This document shows, in pieces, positions 26,460 through 35,598 of a stretch of DNA of 64,000 nt. The notes under the pieces are model-generated. The model worked only from the letters and a program-made list of their open reading frames with translations, was not told the DNA's origin and did no database searches. Within the stretch, counting starts at the first letter, position 1; each line of letters begins with the position of its first letter. Made by a program: the position numbers and the translations under genes. Source of the stretch: Leptolyngbya sp. BL0902 (lineage in GTDB: Bacteria; Cyanobacteriota; Cyanobacteriia; Phormidesmidales; Phormidesmidaceae); contig NZ_CP046155.1 of NCBI RefSeq assembly GCF_016403105.1, forward strand, positions 3,811,906 through 3,875,905, written 5' to 3'.

Positions 26460-27053
26460 TTACCAACTCTGGGGCTGAAAGCGGTCATCATTCAGAATAA
26501 CAACGCCATCTCCCGATTGCGCCATCACAAACAGCCCCTTGCGATAGGCATAGCGGGCTACCTCATCAGGCACGACCATTCCGGCCACGGCTCCCATGGC
26601 TTGCACATCGCCATAGCGAGGCATCAGGCGCTTAAATTTGCTCAAGCGTTCTAGGTGTTCATCCACATCGGTCTGGGTAAGTTTGCTTTTCACTTCCACC
26701 AAAACCGCCTCTGTCGTGTTGACCACCAACAGGTCAATTTCGATGCCCTCGTCACCACGCTGCACGGCAATGCCATCGTGGAACTCGTGGACAGCAATAC
26801 CCCGTTCTTGAAACAGACGCACCACCGCAGGACGCACCTGCCACTCCACAAACTCGCCGAGGCGGTTGCCCAGTTTCCCCAGTTGCTCGTTGAATTGCTG
26901 GTTTTGTTGTCGCAACAGCCGCTCGGTTTCCTGGAATCGTCGCTCGGTTTCCTGGAATCGCCGTTCGGTTTCTTGAGCTTGGCGTTTGGTTTCTTTTTGC
27001 GCTTCGGCGAGTTCGCCCAAAATGCGCCAGACTTCTTCGGAGGTGGTGGCCAT
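26460..27053 (-). CDS. coiled-coil PD-(D/E)XK (DUF3782-like) protein
   Basis: 197 residues. Residues 15-70 form a coiled coil with heptads of ETERRFQ read three times, encoded by an almost perfect 21-bp tandem DNA repeat (about 26923-26975). The C-terminal domain has the restriction-nuclease-like core GDEGIEIDLLVVNTTEAVLVEVKSKLT (Asp, Glu-x-Lys). This architecture is common in cyanobacterial DUF3782/DUF3782-like proteins of unknown role. The putative nuclease activity is inferred from the motif only. Adjacent Uma2 shares the fold. Confidence 0.75.
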   Translation of the reverse strand: MATTSEEVWRILGELAEAQKETKRQAQETERRFQETERRFQETERLLRQQNQQFNEQLGKLGNRLGEFVEWQVRPAVVRLFQERGIAVHEFHDGIAVQRGDEGIEIDLLVVNTTEAVLVEVKSKLTQTDVDEHLERLSKFKRLMPRYGDVQAMGAVAGMVVPDEVARYAYRKGLFVMAQSGDGVVILNDDRFQPQSW

Positions 27054-29768: not shown

Positions 29769-29803
29769 TAAAAAAGGCCACTCGAAACACGAGTAGCCTT
29801 TTT
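29769..29803 (-). terminator. terminator of the pilin gene
   Basis: An 11-bp stem AAGGC-CACTCG/CGAGTAGCCTT with one mismatch and loop AAACA; on the minus strand it is followed by TTTTTTATA. It lies about 55 bases after the pilin stop and upstream of the methyltransferase, so the two genes are probably separate units. Confidence 0.85.
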
Positions 29804-29856
29804 ATAGTGTTGCTAACTAACCCAAAAGGTCAGGTTCGCTAACCTCTTACTAAGCT

Positions 29857-30423
29857 CTACTTACAATCAGGCCGTTTTGCGAGGGGAGCAGTAACCTCAG
29901 CGTTTGCCAAACCTTCATTGGCAATCTGAGCAACAGGAACGACGCCAGGAGCACCGCCGATGCAGAACAGAGCAGTGGTGGTGGAGTTGCCGCCGCTGTC
30001 TTGCAGAGTGTAGGAAACGCCCGTGTAGGCTAGCAGAACGGGGTCAATGGGTTTAGCACTTACAAAAGCAGACTTAGGCAGGGTGCCACCAGTGGGGGCA
30101 GCTAGAGTATTGGCGGTAGTACCATCACCATAGGTGTAGAACTGGGTGGTGGTTTGGATACCTAGACCTAGCAGGTCAATCCGGTTAGCGAAGGTGGGGT
30201 TTTCTAGGCGGTAAGCTTGTTGGCCACGGTTGATGGAACCCACGTAGGAGGTGGCTTCAGACTGACGGGCGCGGTTGGCTTGGTTGAGGAACGCGGGCAG
30301 AGCGATAGCAGCCAGAATACCGATGATGATGATAACCACCAGTAGTTCAATCAAAGTGAAGCCGCCGTCTTCTTTCTTTTGGATGAGGTGTTGCAGCAGC
30401 TTGAAGTTCCAAGTGGATTTCAT
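29857..30423 (-). CDS. pilA: type IV pilin (PilA-like)
   Basis: 188-residue major or minor pilin. A leader of 20 residues ends in the prepilin peptidase site GG/FTLIELLVVIIIIGILAAIA, with the conserved Glu at +5 and the long N-terminal helix. Then LPAFLNQANRARQSEA, a beta-rich head and two Cys (residues about 155 and 187) able to form the C-terminal disulfide loop. AAGGAG lies 11 bases before the ATG. It resembles the cyanobacterial PilA1 family needed for motility and DNA uptake. No other pilus genes are adjacent, as is usual for cyanobacterial pilA. Confidence 0.93.
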   Translation of the reverse strand: MKSTWNFKLLQHLIQKKEDGGFTLIELLVVIIIIGILAAIALPAFLNQANRARQSEATSYVGSINRGQQAYRLENPTFANRIDLLGLGIQTTTQFYTYGDGTTANTLAAPTGGTLPKSAFVSAKPIDPVLLAYTGVSYTLQDSGGNSTTTALFCIGGAPGVVPVAQIANEGLANAEVTAPLAKRPDCK

Positions 30424-30761
30424 AATGGGGTGTCTCCTTGAGAAGCAGGTATAGTTTGTTCGCTTCTTGGACTAACTTACCCACTTGGCTCAGGTTTCAT
30501 ATCACCTCCGGCAAAATTTCTTTTTGCAGGCCGGAGTCTGCACCTTAGAAAGGCGCGAAAAGCTTGCTGAATGGGGCTTCTGGAAATTTGTGTGATTTTG
30601 TAACATTCCCCGGATGGAGCGATAGGCGCTTCGCTGACGGTGTGGGTATTGCCTGGGGCACGGGGGTAAGCCGTTGTCGAATGGGCACGACCTACCCCAC
30701 CTAGGGCGATTGGGTTGGCCACCTTACCCCTGGCAACCGCAGCAATGGGCTACAGTTCGCC
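30424..30761. other. pilA upstream region with hairpin and mini-ORF
   Basis: About 340 bp without a normal gene. Reading the minus strand toward pilA, a hairpin (CTCCGGC, 30530-30536 pairing with GCCGGAG, 30506-30512; inner GCAAAA/TTTTGC stem possible) overlaps a perfect Shine-Dalgarno, GGAGGTGAT, which precedes a seven-codon frame MKPEPSG ending in TAA. About 60 bases later the pilA Shine-Dalgarno follows. This looks like a leader peptide or structured 5' UTR. The part nearer 30761 carries a GTAGG-type repeat relative and nothing else. Confidence 0.5.
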
Positions 30762-31160
30762 CTACTCCTGCAAAAACTGGATGAAATCGGCTATGGCTGC
30801 TTCGACTCCGGCACTGGGGTTGAGTAAATACCGTGCTTGGAGAAGGATCCATCGATTTTGGATTCGAGCTCGGCGAGCCGCTCGTTCTCCTTCCTCAAGG
30901 CTTCGTTGCTTTGCTTCAGCTCGTTCATTCGCAGTGCGTGCTGCTTCTCGATTTCGACGGTCCCATTCAACGCAAAAACCAACCAGCGCCACCACGAGGG
31001 CGGCCACGGTACATCGGTTGCTCCAGGTGCGGGCGTTGGCGACGTATCCGAGGAGGGTGAAGTCGGTTTCATCGTAAAACCTCAGAAAGGCGATGCTGAT
31101 GATCAGGAGCGTGAGCAGGGTGCCCGGAAGCAGCGAGAGAAAATTAACCCAGCGGTTCAT
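30762..31160 (-). CDS. tandem-array membrane coiled-coil protein, copy A (last)
   Basis: Promoter-distal copy of five paralogues; 132 residues, the shortest. Same plan as the others: TM helix 1 about 7-29 (FLSLLPGTLLTLLIISIAFL), a loop DETDFTLLGYVANARTW, TM helix 2 about 50-66, then a charged tail WDRRNREAARTANERAEAKQ, here without the long EEEARRR repeats, and a C-terminal helix NRWILLQARYLLNPSAGVEA. It ends FLQE because a TAG replaces the TAT/TAC Tyr codon that the other copies have before their last three residues. A TATAAT box lies 30 bases before the ATG. Not recognised as a known family. Confidence 0.8.
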   Translation of the reverse strand: MNRWVNFLSLLPGTLLTLLIISIAFLRFYDETDFTLLGYVANARTWSNRCTVAALVVALVGFCVEWDRRNREAARTANERAEAKQRSLEEGERAARRARIQNRWILLQARYLLNPSAGVEAAIADFIQFLQE

Positions 31161-31222
31161 GCCAAACGGGGGGCGTGCCGATTGACCCCATTATACGGGG
31201 CATCCTTGAGGGCAGGCCGAGG

Positions 31223-31783
31223 CTACAGTTCGCCATACTCCTGCAAAAACTGCACAAAATCCGCTATGGCTGCTTCGACTTCGGTACTGGGGTTGAGTAA
31301 ATACCGTGCTTGGAGAACGATCCATCGATTTTGGATTCGAGCTCGGCGAGCCGCTCGTTCTCTTTCCTCAAGGCTTCGTTGCCTTTCCTCAGCTCGTTCA
31401 TTCGCTGCTCGTGCTGCGTCCTCCTCTCTTCGCTTTCTTTCCTCAGCTCGTTCATTCGCTGCTCGTGCTGCGTCCTCCTCTCTTCGTCGAGCCTCTTCCT
31501 CTCTTCGTCGAGCCTCTTCCTCTCTTTGCTCTCTTGCCTCAGCTCGTTCATTCGCAATGCGTGCTGCTTCTCGATTTCGACGGTCCCATTCAGTGCAAAA
31601 ACCAACCAGCGCCACCACGAGGGCGGCCACGGTACATCGGTTGCTCCAGGTGCGGGCGTTGGCGACGTATCCGAGGAGGGTGAAGTCGGTTTCATCGTAG
31701 AACCTCAGAAAGGCGATGCTGATGATCAGGAGCGTGAGCAGGGTGCCCGGAAGCAGCGAGAGAAAATTAACCCAGCGGTTCAT
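31223..31783 (-). CDS. tandem-array membrane coiled-coil protein, copy B (longest)
   Basis: 186-residue paralogue. The first 66 residues match the other copies nearly exactly. The tail is expanded: relative to copy C an 18-residue block (RREEDAARAANERAEERK) is present twice in tandem, a 54-bp duplication. The tail is a long charged coiled coil of EARRREEE- and AANERAEE-type repeats, expected to extend into the cytoplasm or periplasm. It ends QFLQEYGEL. TATAAT lies 30 bases before the ATG (31813-31818), and the 62-bp spacer upstream resembles those of the other copies. Confidence 0.85.
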   Translation of the reverse strand: MNRWVNFLSLLPGTLLTLLIISIAFLRFYDETDFTLLGYVANARTWSNRCTVAALVVALVGFCTEWDRRNREAARIANERAEAREQREEEARRREEEARRREEDAARAANERAEERKRREEDAARAANERAEERQRSLEERERAARRARIQNRWIVLQARYLLNPSTEVEAAIADFVQFLQEYGEL

Positions 31784-31845
31784 GCCAAACGGGGGGCGTA
31801 CCGATTGACCCCATTATACGGGGCATCCTGAAGGGCAGGCCGGGG

Positions 31846-32352
31846 CTACAGTTCGCCGTACTCCTGCAAAAACTGAATGAAATCGGCTATGGCTGCTTCG
31901 ACTTCGGTACTGGGGTTGAGTAAATACCGTGCTTGAAGAACGATCCATCGATTTTGGATTCGAGCTCGGCGAGCCGCTCGTTCTCTTTCCTCAAGGCTTC
32001 GTTGCCTTTCCTCAGCTCGTTCATTCGCTGCTCGTGCTGCGTCCTCCTCTCTTCGTCGAGCCTCTTCCTCTCTTCGTCGAGCCTCTTCCTCTCTTTGCTC
32101 TCTTGCCTCAGCTCGTTCATTCGCAATGCGTGCTGCTTCTCGATTTCGACGGTCCCATTCAGTGCAAAAACCAACCAGCGCCACCACGAGGGCGGCCACG
32201 GTACATCGGTTGCTCCAGGTGCGGGCGTTGGTGACGTATCCGAGGAGGGTGAAGTCGGTTTCATCGTAAAACCTCAGAAAGGCGATGCTGATAATCAGGA
32301 TCGTGAGCAGGGTGCCCGGAAGCAGTGAGAGAAAATTAACCCAGCGGTTCAT
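31846..32352 (-). CDS. tandem-array membrane coiled-coil protein, copy C
   Basis: 168-residue paralogue; two N-terminal membrane helices, then a coiled coil AREQREEEARRREEEARRRE, DAARAANERAEERQRSLEER and the conserved end RARIQNRWIVLQARYLLNPS...EYGEL. It differs from copy B by lacking one 18-residue block. The spacer before the next copy (32353-32414) is identical in sequence to the spacer between copies D and E. TATAAT at 32382-32387, 30 bases before the ATG. Confidence 0.85.
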   Translation of the reverse strand: MNRWVNFLSLLPGTLLTILIISIAFLRFYDETDFTLLGYVTNARTWSNRCTVAALVVALVGFCTEWDRRNREAARIANERAEAREQREEEARRREEEARRREEDAARAANERAEERQRSLEERERAARRARIQNRWIVLQARYLLNPSTEVEAAIADFIQFLQEYGEL

Positions 32353-32414
32353 GCCAAACGGGGGGCGTGCCGATTGACCTCATTATACGAGCCATCCTTG
32401 AGGGCAGGCTGAGG

Positions 32415-32879
32415 CTACAGTTCACCATACTCCTGCAAAAACTGAATGAAATCGGCTATGGCTGCTTCGCCTTCGGCGCTGGGGTTGAGTAAATACCGTG
32501 CTTGGAGAAGGATCCATCGATTTTGGATTCGAGCTCGGCGAGCCGCTCGTTCGTTTTCCTCAGTTCGCTCATTCGCTGCTCGTGCTTCTGCTGATTCTCT
32601 TCGTCGAGCCTCCTCCTCTCTTCGCGCTCTTTCCTCATCTCGTTCATTCGCAGTGCGTGCTGCTTCTCGATTTCGACGGTCCCATTCAGTGCAAAAACCA
32701 ACCAGCGCCACCACGAGGGCGGCCACGGTACATCGGTTGCTCCAGGTGCGGGTGTTGGCGACGTATCCGAGGAGGGTGAAGTCGGTTTCATCGTAAAACC
32801 TCAGAAAGGCGATGCTGATAATCAGGATCGTGAGCAGGGTGCCCGGAAGCAGTGAGAGAAAATTAACCCAGCGGTTCAT
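32415..32879 (-). CDS. tandem-array membrane coiled-coil protein, copy D
   Basis: 154 residues, identical in protein sequence to copy E. Its tail differs in type from B and C: ANERDEERARREEEARRRES, AEARAANERTEENERAARRA. In DNA I see only two silent differences from copy E across the gene, so D and E are a very recent duplication (period 527 bp). TATAAT at 32909-32914. No Shine-Dalgarno is visible before this or any other copy. Confidence 0.85.
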   Translation of the reverse strand: MNRWVNFLSLLPGTLLTILIISIAFLRFYDETDFTLLGYVANTRTWSNRCTVAALVVALVGFCTEWDRRNREAARTANERDEERARREEEARRRESAEARAANERTEENERAARRARIQNRWILLQARYLLNPSAEGEAAIADFIQFLQEYGEL

Positions 32880-32941
32880 GCCAAACGGGGGGCGTGCCGA
32901 TTGACCTCATTATACGAGCCATCCTTGAGGGCAGGCTGAGG

Positions 32942-33406
32942 CTACAGTTCACCATACTCCTGCAAAAACTGAATGAAATCGGCTATGGCTGCTTCGCCTT
33001 CGGCGCTGGGGTTGAGTAAATACCGTGCTTGGAGAAGGATCCATCGATTTTGGATTCGAGCTCGGCGAGCCGCTCGTTCGTTTTCCTCAGTTCGCTCATT
33101 CGCTGCTCGTGCTTCTGCTGATTCTCTTCGTCGAGCCTCCTCCTCTCTTCGCGCTCTTTCCTCATCTCGTTCATTCGCAGTGCGTGCTGCTTCTCGATTT
33201 CGACGGTCCCATTCAGTGCAAAAACCAACCAGCGCCACCACGAGGGCGGCCACGGTACATCGGTTGCTCCAGGTGCGGGTGTTGGCGACGTATCCGAGGA
33301 GGGTGAAGTCGGTTTCATCGTAGAACCTCAGAAAGGCGATGCTGATAATCAGGATCGTGAGCAGGGTGCCCGGAAGCAGTGAGAGAAAGTTAACCCAGCG
33401 GTTCAT
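32942..33406 (-). CDS. tandem-array membrane coiled-coil protein, copy E (first)
   Basis: 154 residues; first copy in the direction of transcription. Domains as in copy D. Its upstream sequence differs from that of the other four copies after about 10 bases (CGTATTCGGCGTTTTTCC in place of the common spacer) but still has a TATAAT box (33433-33438), 27 bases before the ATG. This is the outer edge of the duplicated unit. I do not recognise the family; a membrane-anchored coiled-coil scaffold or sensor is the most that can be inferred. The divergent neighbour is a secreted M48 protease. Confidence 0.85.
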   Translation of the reverse strand: MNRWVNFLSLLPGTLLTILIISIAFLRFYDETDFTLLGYVANTRTWSNRCTVAALVVALVGFCTEWDRRNREAARTANERDEERARREEEARRRESAEARAANERTEENERAARRARIQNRWILLQARYLLNPSAEGEAAIADFIQFLQEYGEL

Positions 33407-33612
33407 GCCAAGGAAAAACGCCGAATACGTCCATTATACGGGGCACCTTTGGGGCGTGTTAATGTGCCGTCAGAACGCCCAAGTCGCCGCTGGGAGCATC
33501 GCTCGATGGATGGGGCTAGATGGGTTAGGGTGATGGGGAACTCAACCGCCTCCTTGGCCGACATGGGGAGGAAGATCGATCCGCCGCCCAACGCCTGAAA
33601 AGAGAGCCTGCC

Positions 33613-35598
33613 ATGGTACGCAACACGATGAAACGTGCGAAACGTTTTTTGGCCTTCACCTTGGCGGCCTATGGGCTGGCCTTGGGGGCCAATTTCGCCT
33701 ACGGAATGAGCAGCCCAACTTGGGCGACAGACCCAACGGCGGCGGCGGTTGCGGCGGAGAATCCTCTAGAACGGCGGACTCAACACCAGGATATACAGGA
33801 TACAGAGGAGTCTGCGGACGGGGTGGAGGCGGTGGTAGAGTCCCGTCCTACCCTGGAAGCGATGGACGCACCCGACCCAGAAGCAATCTCAGAACCCGGG
33901 GCAGCGACAGAAACGGAGTGGGAACTGGGAGTAGAGTGGGAGTCTGAAACGCCTTGGCCCTTGGGCAATCGCAACCCGGCTGAGGCAGAGGCCCAGAATG
34001 CTGTTGGCCCTGGGGAAGCTGTTGCGGAGGACGGGCCAGACGCGGAGACCGAGGCCGCAGCGGAGCAGCCTTCAACAACAGAAGCGTCCTCGGCAGGGGA
34101 GTCCTCAGAGGTAGAAGCTTCAGATGCAGAGTCCCCAGGAGCAGAGTCCCCAGAAGCAGAGTCCTCAGAGGCCGCCTCATCGATAGATCGGGCGCGGTTA
34201 TTCATCGGGCTTTCGGAGGATCAAGTTAAGCGCAGTCAGCTTTTGATGGAGGCAGATCAGCATTTTCTGGCGGGAGATCGGGCGGCGGCGAATGCGCTCT
34301 ATCGTCAGGCGAAGGAGGCCAAATGGCTGGCGGAAATGACCAGCGGTGAAGTCATTGTGCCCATCACCGACCCCGAAGATCTGTCTCCGGCGGGTCGGGT
34401 GTATTGGCGCGAAGCCCAGGCCGGATTGGATTCTGGCTTTCCCAACCGGGTGTTGGTACCGCTAGAACTGTTGGTACGAGACTATCCTGACTTTTTGCCC
34501 GCCCAGTCTCTCTATGGGCGCTACTTGATCCAGCAGGGGCGCACGGAGGAGGCGCGGCAACTCCTAGAGTCCTTGGCGCTGCGGTTTCCCTACCATCCCG
34601 ATGTGCTGAACGCCCAAATTCAGCTTCAGATGGCTCAGGAGCAGTGGATTGAAGCGGCGATCACCGCCAACCAGTTTGCCCTGCTTAACCCCGAACACCC
34701 CGATGCCGGAGCCATGGAGCAACTGGCCCAGGAGAACTTCAACCGCTTCCGAGGCCAGATCAACGCTAACCTCACCCGCAACCTGGTAGGCAACATCATC
34801 ACGGGCGCGGCCAGCTACTTCCTCACCGGGGGGCTGTTTGGCCCCTTCACTGCCCTCAACTCCGGCATTTTGATGATGCAGGGGGAAAGCGTGCTGGGGC
34901 AGCAGGTGGCGGATCAGGTCAAGCGTCAGTTGCCCATCGTCACCGACCCGGAGGTGCGGGACTACGTCAACGAGATTGGCCACAAACTCGCCGCCCTGGC
35001 CGGACGGGATGAGTTTAACTACAGCTTTGAGGTGGTGATGGATGAGAATCTCAACGCCTTTGCCCTGCCGGGAGGAAAGATCTTCATCAACGCCGGAGCC
35101 ATCACCAATAGCTATTCCGAAGCAGAACTGGCCGGACTGCTGGGCCACGAAATTTCCCATGCGGTGCTATCCCATGGATTCCAAATGGTGACTCAGGGCA
35201 ACCTCACCGCCAGCCTTGCGGCCTTTATCCCCGTGCCCCAGGTGGCCAACATCGCCGCCAACCTGTTGGTAGCCAGCTATTCCCGCGATATGGAGCGTCA
35301 GTCCGACATTTTGGGCACTAAGCTCCTCGCCACCGGGAACTATGCCGCCGACGGCCTCCACAACCTGATGACCACCCTCGAAGCCGAACACGGCAATCGC
35401 GGCGTCACCTGGTTTGCCTCCCACCCCAACCCTGGGGAGCGGGTGAGCTACATCAAACAACTCATCGACCAAGGCGGCTTCGACCGCTACACCTACGAAG
35501 GCGTGGAAAAGCACCTGACTGTGCGCCTCAAAACCCTCCAGCTCATCAACGAGTACAAACTGGAGAACAGCCGCCAGGATAAGCTTCCCCGCCGTTAG
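33613..35598 (+). CDS. secreted M48-family metalloprotease with TPR-like region
   Basis: 661 residues. A signal peptide (RFLAFTLAAYGLALGANFAYG) is followed by about 150 residues of acidic Glu/Ala/Ser/Pro low complexity, with a repeat of the type AESPEAESSEA near 170-190. Helical TPR-like repeats span about 205-370 (ADQHFLAGDRAAANALYRQA, YGRYLIQQGRTEEARQLLES). The M48 peptidase domain follows, with the zinc motif LLGHEISHAVLSHG at about 508-521 and the third ligand Glu in SRDMERQSDILG. It resembles BepA-type proteases, which use TPRs in outer membrane protein quality control, but here the TPRs come before the peptidase. Divergent from the tandem array. Confidence 0.9.
   Translation: MVRNTMKRAKRFLAFTLAAYGLALGANFAYGMSSPTWATDPTAAAVAAENPLERRTQHQDIQDTEESADGVEAVVESRPTLEAMDAPDPEAISEPGAATETEWELGVEWESETPWPLGNRNPAEAEAQNAVGPGEAVAEDGPDAETEAAAEQPSTTEASSAGESSEVEASDAESPGAESPEAESSEAASSIDRARLFIGLSEDQVKRSQLLMEADQHFLAGDRAAANALYRQAKEAKWLAEMTSGEVIVPITDPEDLSPAGRVYWREAQAGLDSGFPNRVLVPLELLVRDYPDFLPAQSLYGRYLIQQGRTEEARQLLESLALRFPYHPDVLNAQIQLQMAQEQWIEAAITANQFALLNPEHPDAGAMEQLAQENFNRFRGQINANLTRNLVGNIITGAASYFLTGGLFGPFTALNSGILMMQGESVLGQQVADQVKRQLPIVTDPEVRDYVNEIGHKLAALAGRDEFNYSFEVVMDENLNAFALPGGKIFINAGAITNSYSEAELAGLLGHEISHAVLSHGFQMVTQGNLTASLAAFIPVPQVANIAANLLVASYSRDMERQSDILGTKLLATGNYAADGLHNLMTTLEAEHGNRGVTWFASHPNPGERVSYIKQLIDQGGFDRYTYEGVEKHLTVRLKTLQLINEYKLENSRQDKLPRR

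Follow-up and report, generated by a model that had tools for sequence, protein, structure and literature searches.

Tandem membrane coiled-coil genes of a cyanobacterium with evidence for a second protein encoded in an overlapping frame

Nesting of one gene out of frame within another is known from a bacterial chromosome in comS, which lies inside srfAB of Bacillus, and gene callers tend to drop nested open reading frames (ORFs). To our knowledge, bacterial chromosomes rarely contain long genes nested on the same strand for which selection on both frames has been shown, and large conserved two-in-one gene families of this kind have rarely been reported outside viruses. Antisense overlapping genes, pop/ompA and laoB, are described in E. 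coli (PMC7103648 and PMC5810103, in the excerpts available), and the available part of PMC6139136 describes phage spanins with an embedded out-of-frame partner gene, the partner being a lipoprotein. Here, we describe a tandem array of five genes on the minus strand of a stretch of 64,000 nucleotides from Leptolyngbya sp. BL0902 (positions 3,811,906 to 3,875,905 of NZ_CP046155.1; the whole stretch is referred to as the window), and present comparative evidence that each copy codes for protein in two frames.

The genes lie head to tail at window positions 30762-33406 and are named w1 (beginning at 33406) to w5 (ending at 30762) in order of transcription. Every copy holds a second ORF of 93-143 amino acids (aa) in the +1 frame, with both its start and its stop within the main gene; the ATG codons of the nested ORFs are at 31072, 31695, 32264, 32791 and 33318 (w5 to w1). 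The main and nested frames are referred to below as the outer and inner frames. The first-pass annotation of the window had argued for a function from the preservation of the frames over all copies. Preservation was found, and it is true of two frames; the nested +1 frame had been missed.

Selection was assessed in an ungapped block of 73 codons, using 46 non-redundant members (<92% identity) out of 73. Across codons 0-24, where 19 columns could be scored, divergence at the fourfold degenerate sites of the outer frame was 0.44-0.74. Starting with codon 25, 24 of the 32 scorable columns had values <=0.20 and the other 8 had 0.34-0.64. This drop coincides with the inner ATG. With rows aligned on the inner C-terminus, silent divergence climbs back at about the inner stop or past it in both groups that have enough sequence there. 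Successive values were 0.07, 0.06 and 0.27 before the stop and 0.42, 0.48, 0.61 and 0.52 after it in a group of 6 rows, and 0.00, 0.13, 0.01, 0.27, 0.52 and 0.15 before and 0.48 after in a group of 17 rows, in which the inner C-terminus is thus unevenly constrained. In two further subfamilies the membrane part of the outer protein differs (MVSFLALLPRSLTTFLYAVAALLRFYG... and MPDFQTFITILTALLVFLLG...), while the coil and C-terminus are common and an inner ORF of the same build is present. Fourfold divergence drops there from 0.60 to 0.14 (11 non-redundant rows) and from 0.48 to 0.07 (7 and 5 rows); one of the 14 rows placed in group II (L098) belongs to group I. Codon choice also differs between regions. 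GCC makes up 56% of Ala codons ahead of the overlap, 38% within the membrane part of the overlap, 5% within the coil and 22% beyond the overlap, and CGG plus AGG make up 3% of Arg codons in the coil versus 34% after the inner stop and 29% in flanking genes (the Arg figure before the overlap comes from one codon position only and was not used as a baseline).

Each nucleotide difference between members of 33 disjoint close pairs was then classed by its effect in both frames and set against all possible changes, with transitions weighted 2.5. Ratios of observed to expected changes in the overlap were 5.34 (silent in both frames), 1.25 (outer-silent, inner-changing), 1.40 (outer-changing, inner-silent) and 0.51 (changing in both); upstream of the inner ATG they were, in the same order, 2.24, 2.39, 0.60 and 0.24. 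The outer-silent estimator alone separates the overlap (1.25/5.34) from this control (2.39/2.24). Among outer-silent changes, 22 of 118 in the overlap were also inner-silent, against 5% expected (p = 1e-7). Upstream of the ATG, where the inner frame has no bearing, the count of 46 of 275 matched expectation (p = 0.75). In nine same-length pairs, drawn from the same sequences, the membrane part (8/29, p = 7e-5) and the stretch of coil that ends at the inner stop (7/58, p = 0.006) gave a dual signal, and none was found before the ATG (p 1.0) or after the inner stop (12.5/98.5 versus 11% expected, p = 0.63). The outer frame is constrained throughout, so the frames were not misassigned. These comparisons indicate that purifying selection acts on both frames inside the overlap and on the outer frame only on either side of it. 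The reading of the array as single genes was rejected on the fourfold-divergence drop at the inner ATG and the pair tests.

The boundaries of the inner frame are also kept. All 75 of the 75 members have an inner ATG at either of two neighbouring inner codons; it is present in each of the 46 non-redundant members, although outer-frame codon usage would predict its absence from approximately 13 (P of about 3e-7 on the assumption of independent members, which holds only in part). The inner stop was seen in 69 of the 75, and in the remaining 6 the examined segment ended first. AGG is used for the Arg immediately before the inner ATG in 13 of 46 members, compared with a background of 4.5%, which hints at a role in ribosome binding. 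The inner protein, as the predicted product of the nested frame, would arise by independent internal initiation at this ATG; conservation of the ATG makes production by frameshifting less likely. Selection on the second frame is confined to the overlap, and both its start and its stop are conserved. On this comparative evidence, we consider it close to certain that the family is dual coding, with selection in both frames.

The outer protein consists of a hydrophobic hairpin with a short second helix, an Arg/Glu/Ala-rich helix and a C-terminal helical hairpin. AlphaFold2 predicts, for the single chain, helices at residues 3-28, 31-41, 50-131 and 135-151, with a mean pLDDT (the predictor's per-residue confidence score) of 82, and of 56-65 over the first 50 residues. 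The membrane part had been described as two-helix, which is likely, but the second helix is short: a 19-residue hydropathy window finds one membrane helix in 71 of 75 members and two in 4, and narrowing the window to 15 residues gives the second segment a mean of 2.2, with a minimum of 1.8. Lys and Arg together average 6.0 in the 20 residues past the second helix versus 3.0 in the 23-residue loop, and under the positive-inside rule this asymmetry would place the outer rod in the cytoplasm.

The inner consensus reads M-x-K-T-S-x-S-S-D..., then GATDSPWQPSWWxWLISALSGTVEIEKQ, a coil and RLAELESK, that is, a Ser/Thr/Pro-rich tail, which we propose to be disordered, a Trp-rich segment, which probably lies on the membrane, and a zipper-like coil. 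Neither a transmembrane window nor a lipobox ([LVI][ASTVI][GAS]C within the first 45 residues) was found in any of 124 distinct inner ORFs. One helix (residues 26-97) is predicted, with a mean pLDDT of 80. Leucine zippers of the GCN4 type have Leu at d positions and a buried Asn at an a position. In the inner coil an Asn occupies an a position adjoining the C-terminal anchor in 96 of 99 ORFs, and 81 of 99 have Leu at the d position that lies a heptad ahead of the anchor; at d one heptad upstream, Leu, Ile, Val or Met is present in 95%, and two heptads upstream in 70%. As the anchor pattern itself requires Leu or Ile at three positions, only the Asn at +3 and the Leu at +7 count as evidence for a zipper. 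The inner coil is proposed, from this pattern, to be of the kind that forms parallel dimers, and hydrophobic residues recur with a 3.5-residue period in both frames (48 members).

The length of the tail had been named as the main variable of the array, and this is supported. Between fixed anchors the inner coil measures 15-85 residues, and modulo 7 these lengths fall only into classes 1, 2, 5 and 6 (48, 9, 37 and 5 ORFs; 99/99). When the 28 distinct lengths are counted once, the 3.5-residue periodicity is R = 0.69, a value reached in 0 of 20,000 random draws. Of the 124 inner ORFs, the 99 with both anchors were tested, 19 have another C-terminal motif (18 of these 19 fall in one class modulo 7) and 6 lack a C anchor; the split into groups I and II by pattern is rough, and the length test pools all groups. 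The coils of w1 to w5 are 44, 44, 58, 76 and 26 residues, or approximately 6.5, 6.5, 8.6, 11.3 and 3.9 nm as straight helices. Quantisation at the helical repeat favours a rigid rod over a flexible linker, and together with the 3.5-residue periodicity it suggests a rod-shaped tail in which rotational phase is maintained between the ends; from the length statistics, we regard rod-like, phase-locked coils as highly probable. Because both frames share the same DNA, both rods change length together and by the same number of residues. The earlier suggestion of an undescribed membrane-anchored coiled-coil family with tails of variable length is supported, except that the length changes are common to two proteins.

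Five further copies were found in the source genome, at four other sites, namely singles at C1:1926854, 3227684 and 4005761 and a tandem pair at 3435413-3436404. With one copy as query, the outer-protein family was found in 31 of 57 genomes, and a 21-row profile found it in 63 of 388 genomes of the class, representing 27 of 159 genera (the source genome is counted in both). Positive genomes have 1-12 matches, fragments counted, and 25 were found in one genome that was searched more fully. Two short peptide patterns recovered 73 loci from a named genome collection, all cyanobacterial by record names and including Nodosilinea, Leptolyngbya, Phormidium, Picosynechococcus, Synechocystis, Chrysosporum and other genera. 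Picosynechococcus sp. PCC 7117 is an example of a laboratory strain with copies. Arrays recur, with nine matches in 6.2 kb in G338 (seven full, two partial), five copies in a row in G054, three in G097, and four full copies plus one cut by a contig end in G028. The G338 and G054 assemblies are each a single contig, which makes an assembly artefact an improbable source of such arrays in general. The phage, plasmid and viral-contig collections searched yielded no copy, and a phage or plasmid origin was rejected on that ground. We also note that an insert translating as CLKTRFAN occupies a common position in three loci (L081:2497-2985, L093:5857-6405 and L036:1080-1310), where it follows RRN or, in L036, RN. 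Only 42 aa of the inner ORF are left in L081 and L093, and the membrane part of the outer protein continues there into the inner-frame coil; these are either natural frame-joined forms or decaying copies.

The statement that the array belongs to no recognised family holds within the libraries searched (Pfam, NCBIfam, PHROG, PADLOC and PDB), and helical structures are predicted for both frames. Neither protein has a match above the cutoff in Pfam or NCBIfam, the strongest sub-cutoff match being that of an inner coil to NF045487 (E 2e-6, 26.6 bits versus a cutoff of 300); Pfam Phage_lysis scored 11.9 bits against a cutoff of 25.4. No convincing match to PHROG was found for either protein (best E 3e-4). 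The profile searches with inner queries included one row, L028:1796-2137, that is outer frame. Five of six proteins had no PADLOC match, and one inner coil had matches of coiled-coil type (E 2e-4 to 4e-3). A sequence search of the PDB gave one weak match (E 0.008), to a transporter fusion, and a second search none, and a fold search of the PDB gave none at E<=0.001. No description of this family was found among open-licence papers in PubMed Central with the word combinations searched. The nested gene pair therefore comprises an unnamed protein family in each frame.

Several observations weigh against coding in both frames or against parts of the account given here. Only 11 of 46 members have a tetramer resembling a Shine-Dalgarno sequence ahead of the inner ATG. 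Openness of the inner frame, taken alone, is weak evidence gene by gene, reaching p<0.05 in 19 of 46 members by codon permutation and 29 of 46 by codon-usage resampling, and the 75 members had been picked for an intact outer-frame motif. In the 17-row group, one of the windows ahead of the inner stop already shows a silent divergence of 0.52, and in an 18-row group the sequence beyond the stop is too short for a rise to be judged. The outer-changing estimator fails to separate the overlap (0.51/1.40) from the control (0.24/0.60) and was not used. Rearranged copies at L081, L093 and L096 have the inner ORF cut to 42-63 aa, and the length data are compatible with either frame imposing the quantum.

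The explanation that we favour, with some reserve, is that each copy is a dual-coding gene that makes two membrane-attached rods of equal length, which would work as a complex. The outer frame would yield a small membrane protein in which a hydrophobic hairpin leads into a charged Ala/Glu/Arg helix and then a short helical hairpin at the C-terminus; from the nested +1 frame, with its own start at the internal ATG, would come a tail, a Trp-rich segment that probably lies on the membrane and a zipper-like coil. An in-frame insertion or deletion in the shared DNA would lengthen or shorten both rods equally, and selection would retain only those lengths that leave the rod ends in helical phase. 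In the working form, the two rods would stand side by side in a membrane complex, one anchored by the hairpin and the other by the Trp-rich helix, and both products are accordingly placed at the membrane in this proposal. That the two products are physical partners appears to us a finely balanced matter. The copies in the window would give rods of about 4-11 nm (26-76 residues between anchors), and the differing lengths and differing C-terminal caps would make a graded set of spacers, tethers or signal-transmitting rods. More tentatively, and with somewhat more doubt than confidence, we suggest a self-matching molecular ruler, in which two frames encode partner coils that must always match in length and the arrays supply graded membrane rods.

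Both frames could instead be translated into proteins that are not partners, the inner one forming its own dimer and acting separately and the overprinting being a historical accident. The Asn at a and mostly Leu at d of the inner coil (96/99 for Asn) are as in parallel homodimeric zippers, and the Arg/Glu/Ala-rich outer tail could be a lone helix. However, no inner ORF was found away from an outer one, since all inner matches at E<=1e-15 lay, by eye, on outer matches, and the overlap is kept in three subfamilies with different membrane parts, which suggests that the pair matters; we judge this explanation unlikely, if the most serious of the alternatives. Less probable again is a self-contained toxin-antitoxin or anti-phage module, in which the nested protein keeps in check a membrane protein that is harmful to the cell or sets off suicide, and the arrays are addiction or defence stocks. 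The patchy distribution (1-12 matches per positive genome, 25 in one), the tandem arrays and the stand-alone genes beside unrelated genes in the loci inspected would suit such a module, but there was no convincing PADLOC match and no plasmid or phage copy in the collections searched, and such a pair would not need long phase-locked coils.

We think it very improbable that only the outer protein is made and that the additional constraint reflects an RNA structure or a DNA element within the gene. The constraint was indeed measured on nucleotides, but it follows the inner codon phase, is bounded by the ATG and the inner stop and recurs in three subfamilies, the inner frame gives a regular zipper-like coil, and Rfam had no match at gathering scores within 29800-34000. 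A two-component spanin (Rz/Rz1) captured from a phage, with a membrane protein and an embedded partner spanning the envelope, is scarcely credible to us. It would share the gene architecture of the array, a +1-frame partner in a membrane coiled-coil gene (PMC6139136, in the part available), and each copy does have a partner gene embedded in another frame. PHROG also gave matches to Rz-like spanins, which are weak (inner L027 E 5e-4, L026 0.025 and w1 0.28; outer w4 E 0.064), as expected for coiled coils in general. Against it, 124 of 124 inner ORFs have no lipobox, phage records and viral contigs gave no match, and inspection by eye of the window ORFs and of the neighbours surveyed revealed no lysis gene. 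Membership of the spanins was rejected on the lipobox count (0/124); no phage or lysis-cassette context was found in the collections and loci covered.

In the window, the outer genes are, on the minus strand, w1 at 32942..33406 (154 aa; membrane hairpin, charged helix and C-terminal helical hairpin), w2 at 32415..32879 (154 aa, identical in protein to w1), w3 at 31846..32352 (168 aa), w4 at 31223..31783 (186 aa) and w5 at 30762..31160 (132 aa), which lacks the last four residues owing to an early TAG. The nested +1-frame ORFs are at 32983..33318 in w1 (111 aa; Ser/Pro-rich tail, Trp-rich helix and coiled coil, as predicted), 32456..32791 in w2 (111 aa), 31887..32264 in w3 (125 aa), 31264..31695 in w4 (143 aa) and 30791..31072 in w5 (93 aa). 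All four spacers are exactly 62 base pairs (bp) and contain TATAAT: w1-w2 at 32880..32941, w2-w3 at 32353..32414, w3-w4 at 31784..31845 and w4-w5 at 31161..31222. The five head-to-tail genes, their lengths (132, 186, 168, 154 and 154 residues), the 62-bp spacers and the TATAAT upstream of 5/5 copies, all given in the first-pass annotation, were confirmed, as was the report of two copies with identical proteins and two silent differences. These are w1 and w2, which differ at gene positions 18 and 84; the nested ORF begins beyond both sites, at gene position 89. Recent duplication is supported. The w1/w2 copy number is as assembled and may include an assembly error, and w3-w5 differ in both length and sequence.

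A full -35/-10 pair was found only before w1 (TTAACA-18-TATAAT, 33433..33462 on the minus strand, a consensus match only, with 11 of 12 consensus positions), and the scan found 1 site versus 1.5 expected by shuffling, which is not significant. Separate promoters for w2-w5 are therefore only possible. Short inverted repeats enclose the TATAAT of the spacers, two of which read CCCC-GTATAAT-GGGG and two CTC-GTATAAT-GAG, and the arms covary between spacers as expected of an operator or hairpin. Directly downstream of the array, on the same strand, is a gene that by eye is type IV pilin-like (29857-30423). A coiled-coil protein with tandem QETERRF repeats is encoded at 26460-27053, which we take to resemble a DUF3782-type nuclease-like family; sequence like its complement adjoins the copy in L031.

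Neighbours were surveyed by clustering 686 neighbour ORFs, and the widest 22 clusters and six loci were inspected. Shared neighbours mostly mark the same orthologous sites (by eye, photosystem, gap and heme-oxygenase regions), and the widest cluster (21 loci) is ABC-transporter-like. A conserved functional neighbour was rejected for the loci inspected, where the genes beside the copies are unrelated, and the unit thus seems self-contained. Near one copy is a protein (L064:350-2701) that is presumably TIR-domain-like and TPR-like; no TIR protein was seen in the other five loci of the same cluster.

Selection was tested here on about 60 non-redundant members from three subfamilies, with controls on both sides of the overlap, and the family offers a rich natural data set of two proteins evolving in one stretch of DNA. 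Given the habit of gene callers noted above, a whole conserved protein family may be missing from annotation. If the lengths of partners are locked by their shared DNA, gene overlap itself would have a testable function and, if this is true, a selective reason other than genome compression.

Of the known systems, comS/srfAB differs from the array in being a single locus that encodes a short peptide within a synthetase gene, without coiled coils or a family of copies. The inner coil is like GCN4 in its Leu d and Asn a residues, has no DNA-binding part, and no sequence relationship is claimed. Like the array, pop/ompA and laoB are non-trivial overlaps in a bacterial chromosome; they are antisense, whereas the array genes are nested on the same strand (PMC7103648 and PMC5810103, in the excerpts available). 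A further likeness is to lambda Rz/Rz1, where, as far as the available part of PMC6139136 describes them, the second protein is encoded wholly within the first gene in the +1 frame, the first is a membrane protein with a coiled-coil rod, the two proteins are partners, and Rz1-type inner genes are often missed by gene callers. Unlike Rz/Rz1, the family of the array has inner proteins without a lipobox, is chromosomal and amplified in cyanobacteria, was found in no phage or lysis context, and has predicted rods that are matched in length and phase-locked. Same-strand nested genes are a known kind, to which the array adds an unnamed family in each frame.

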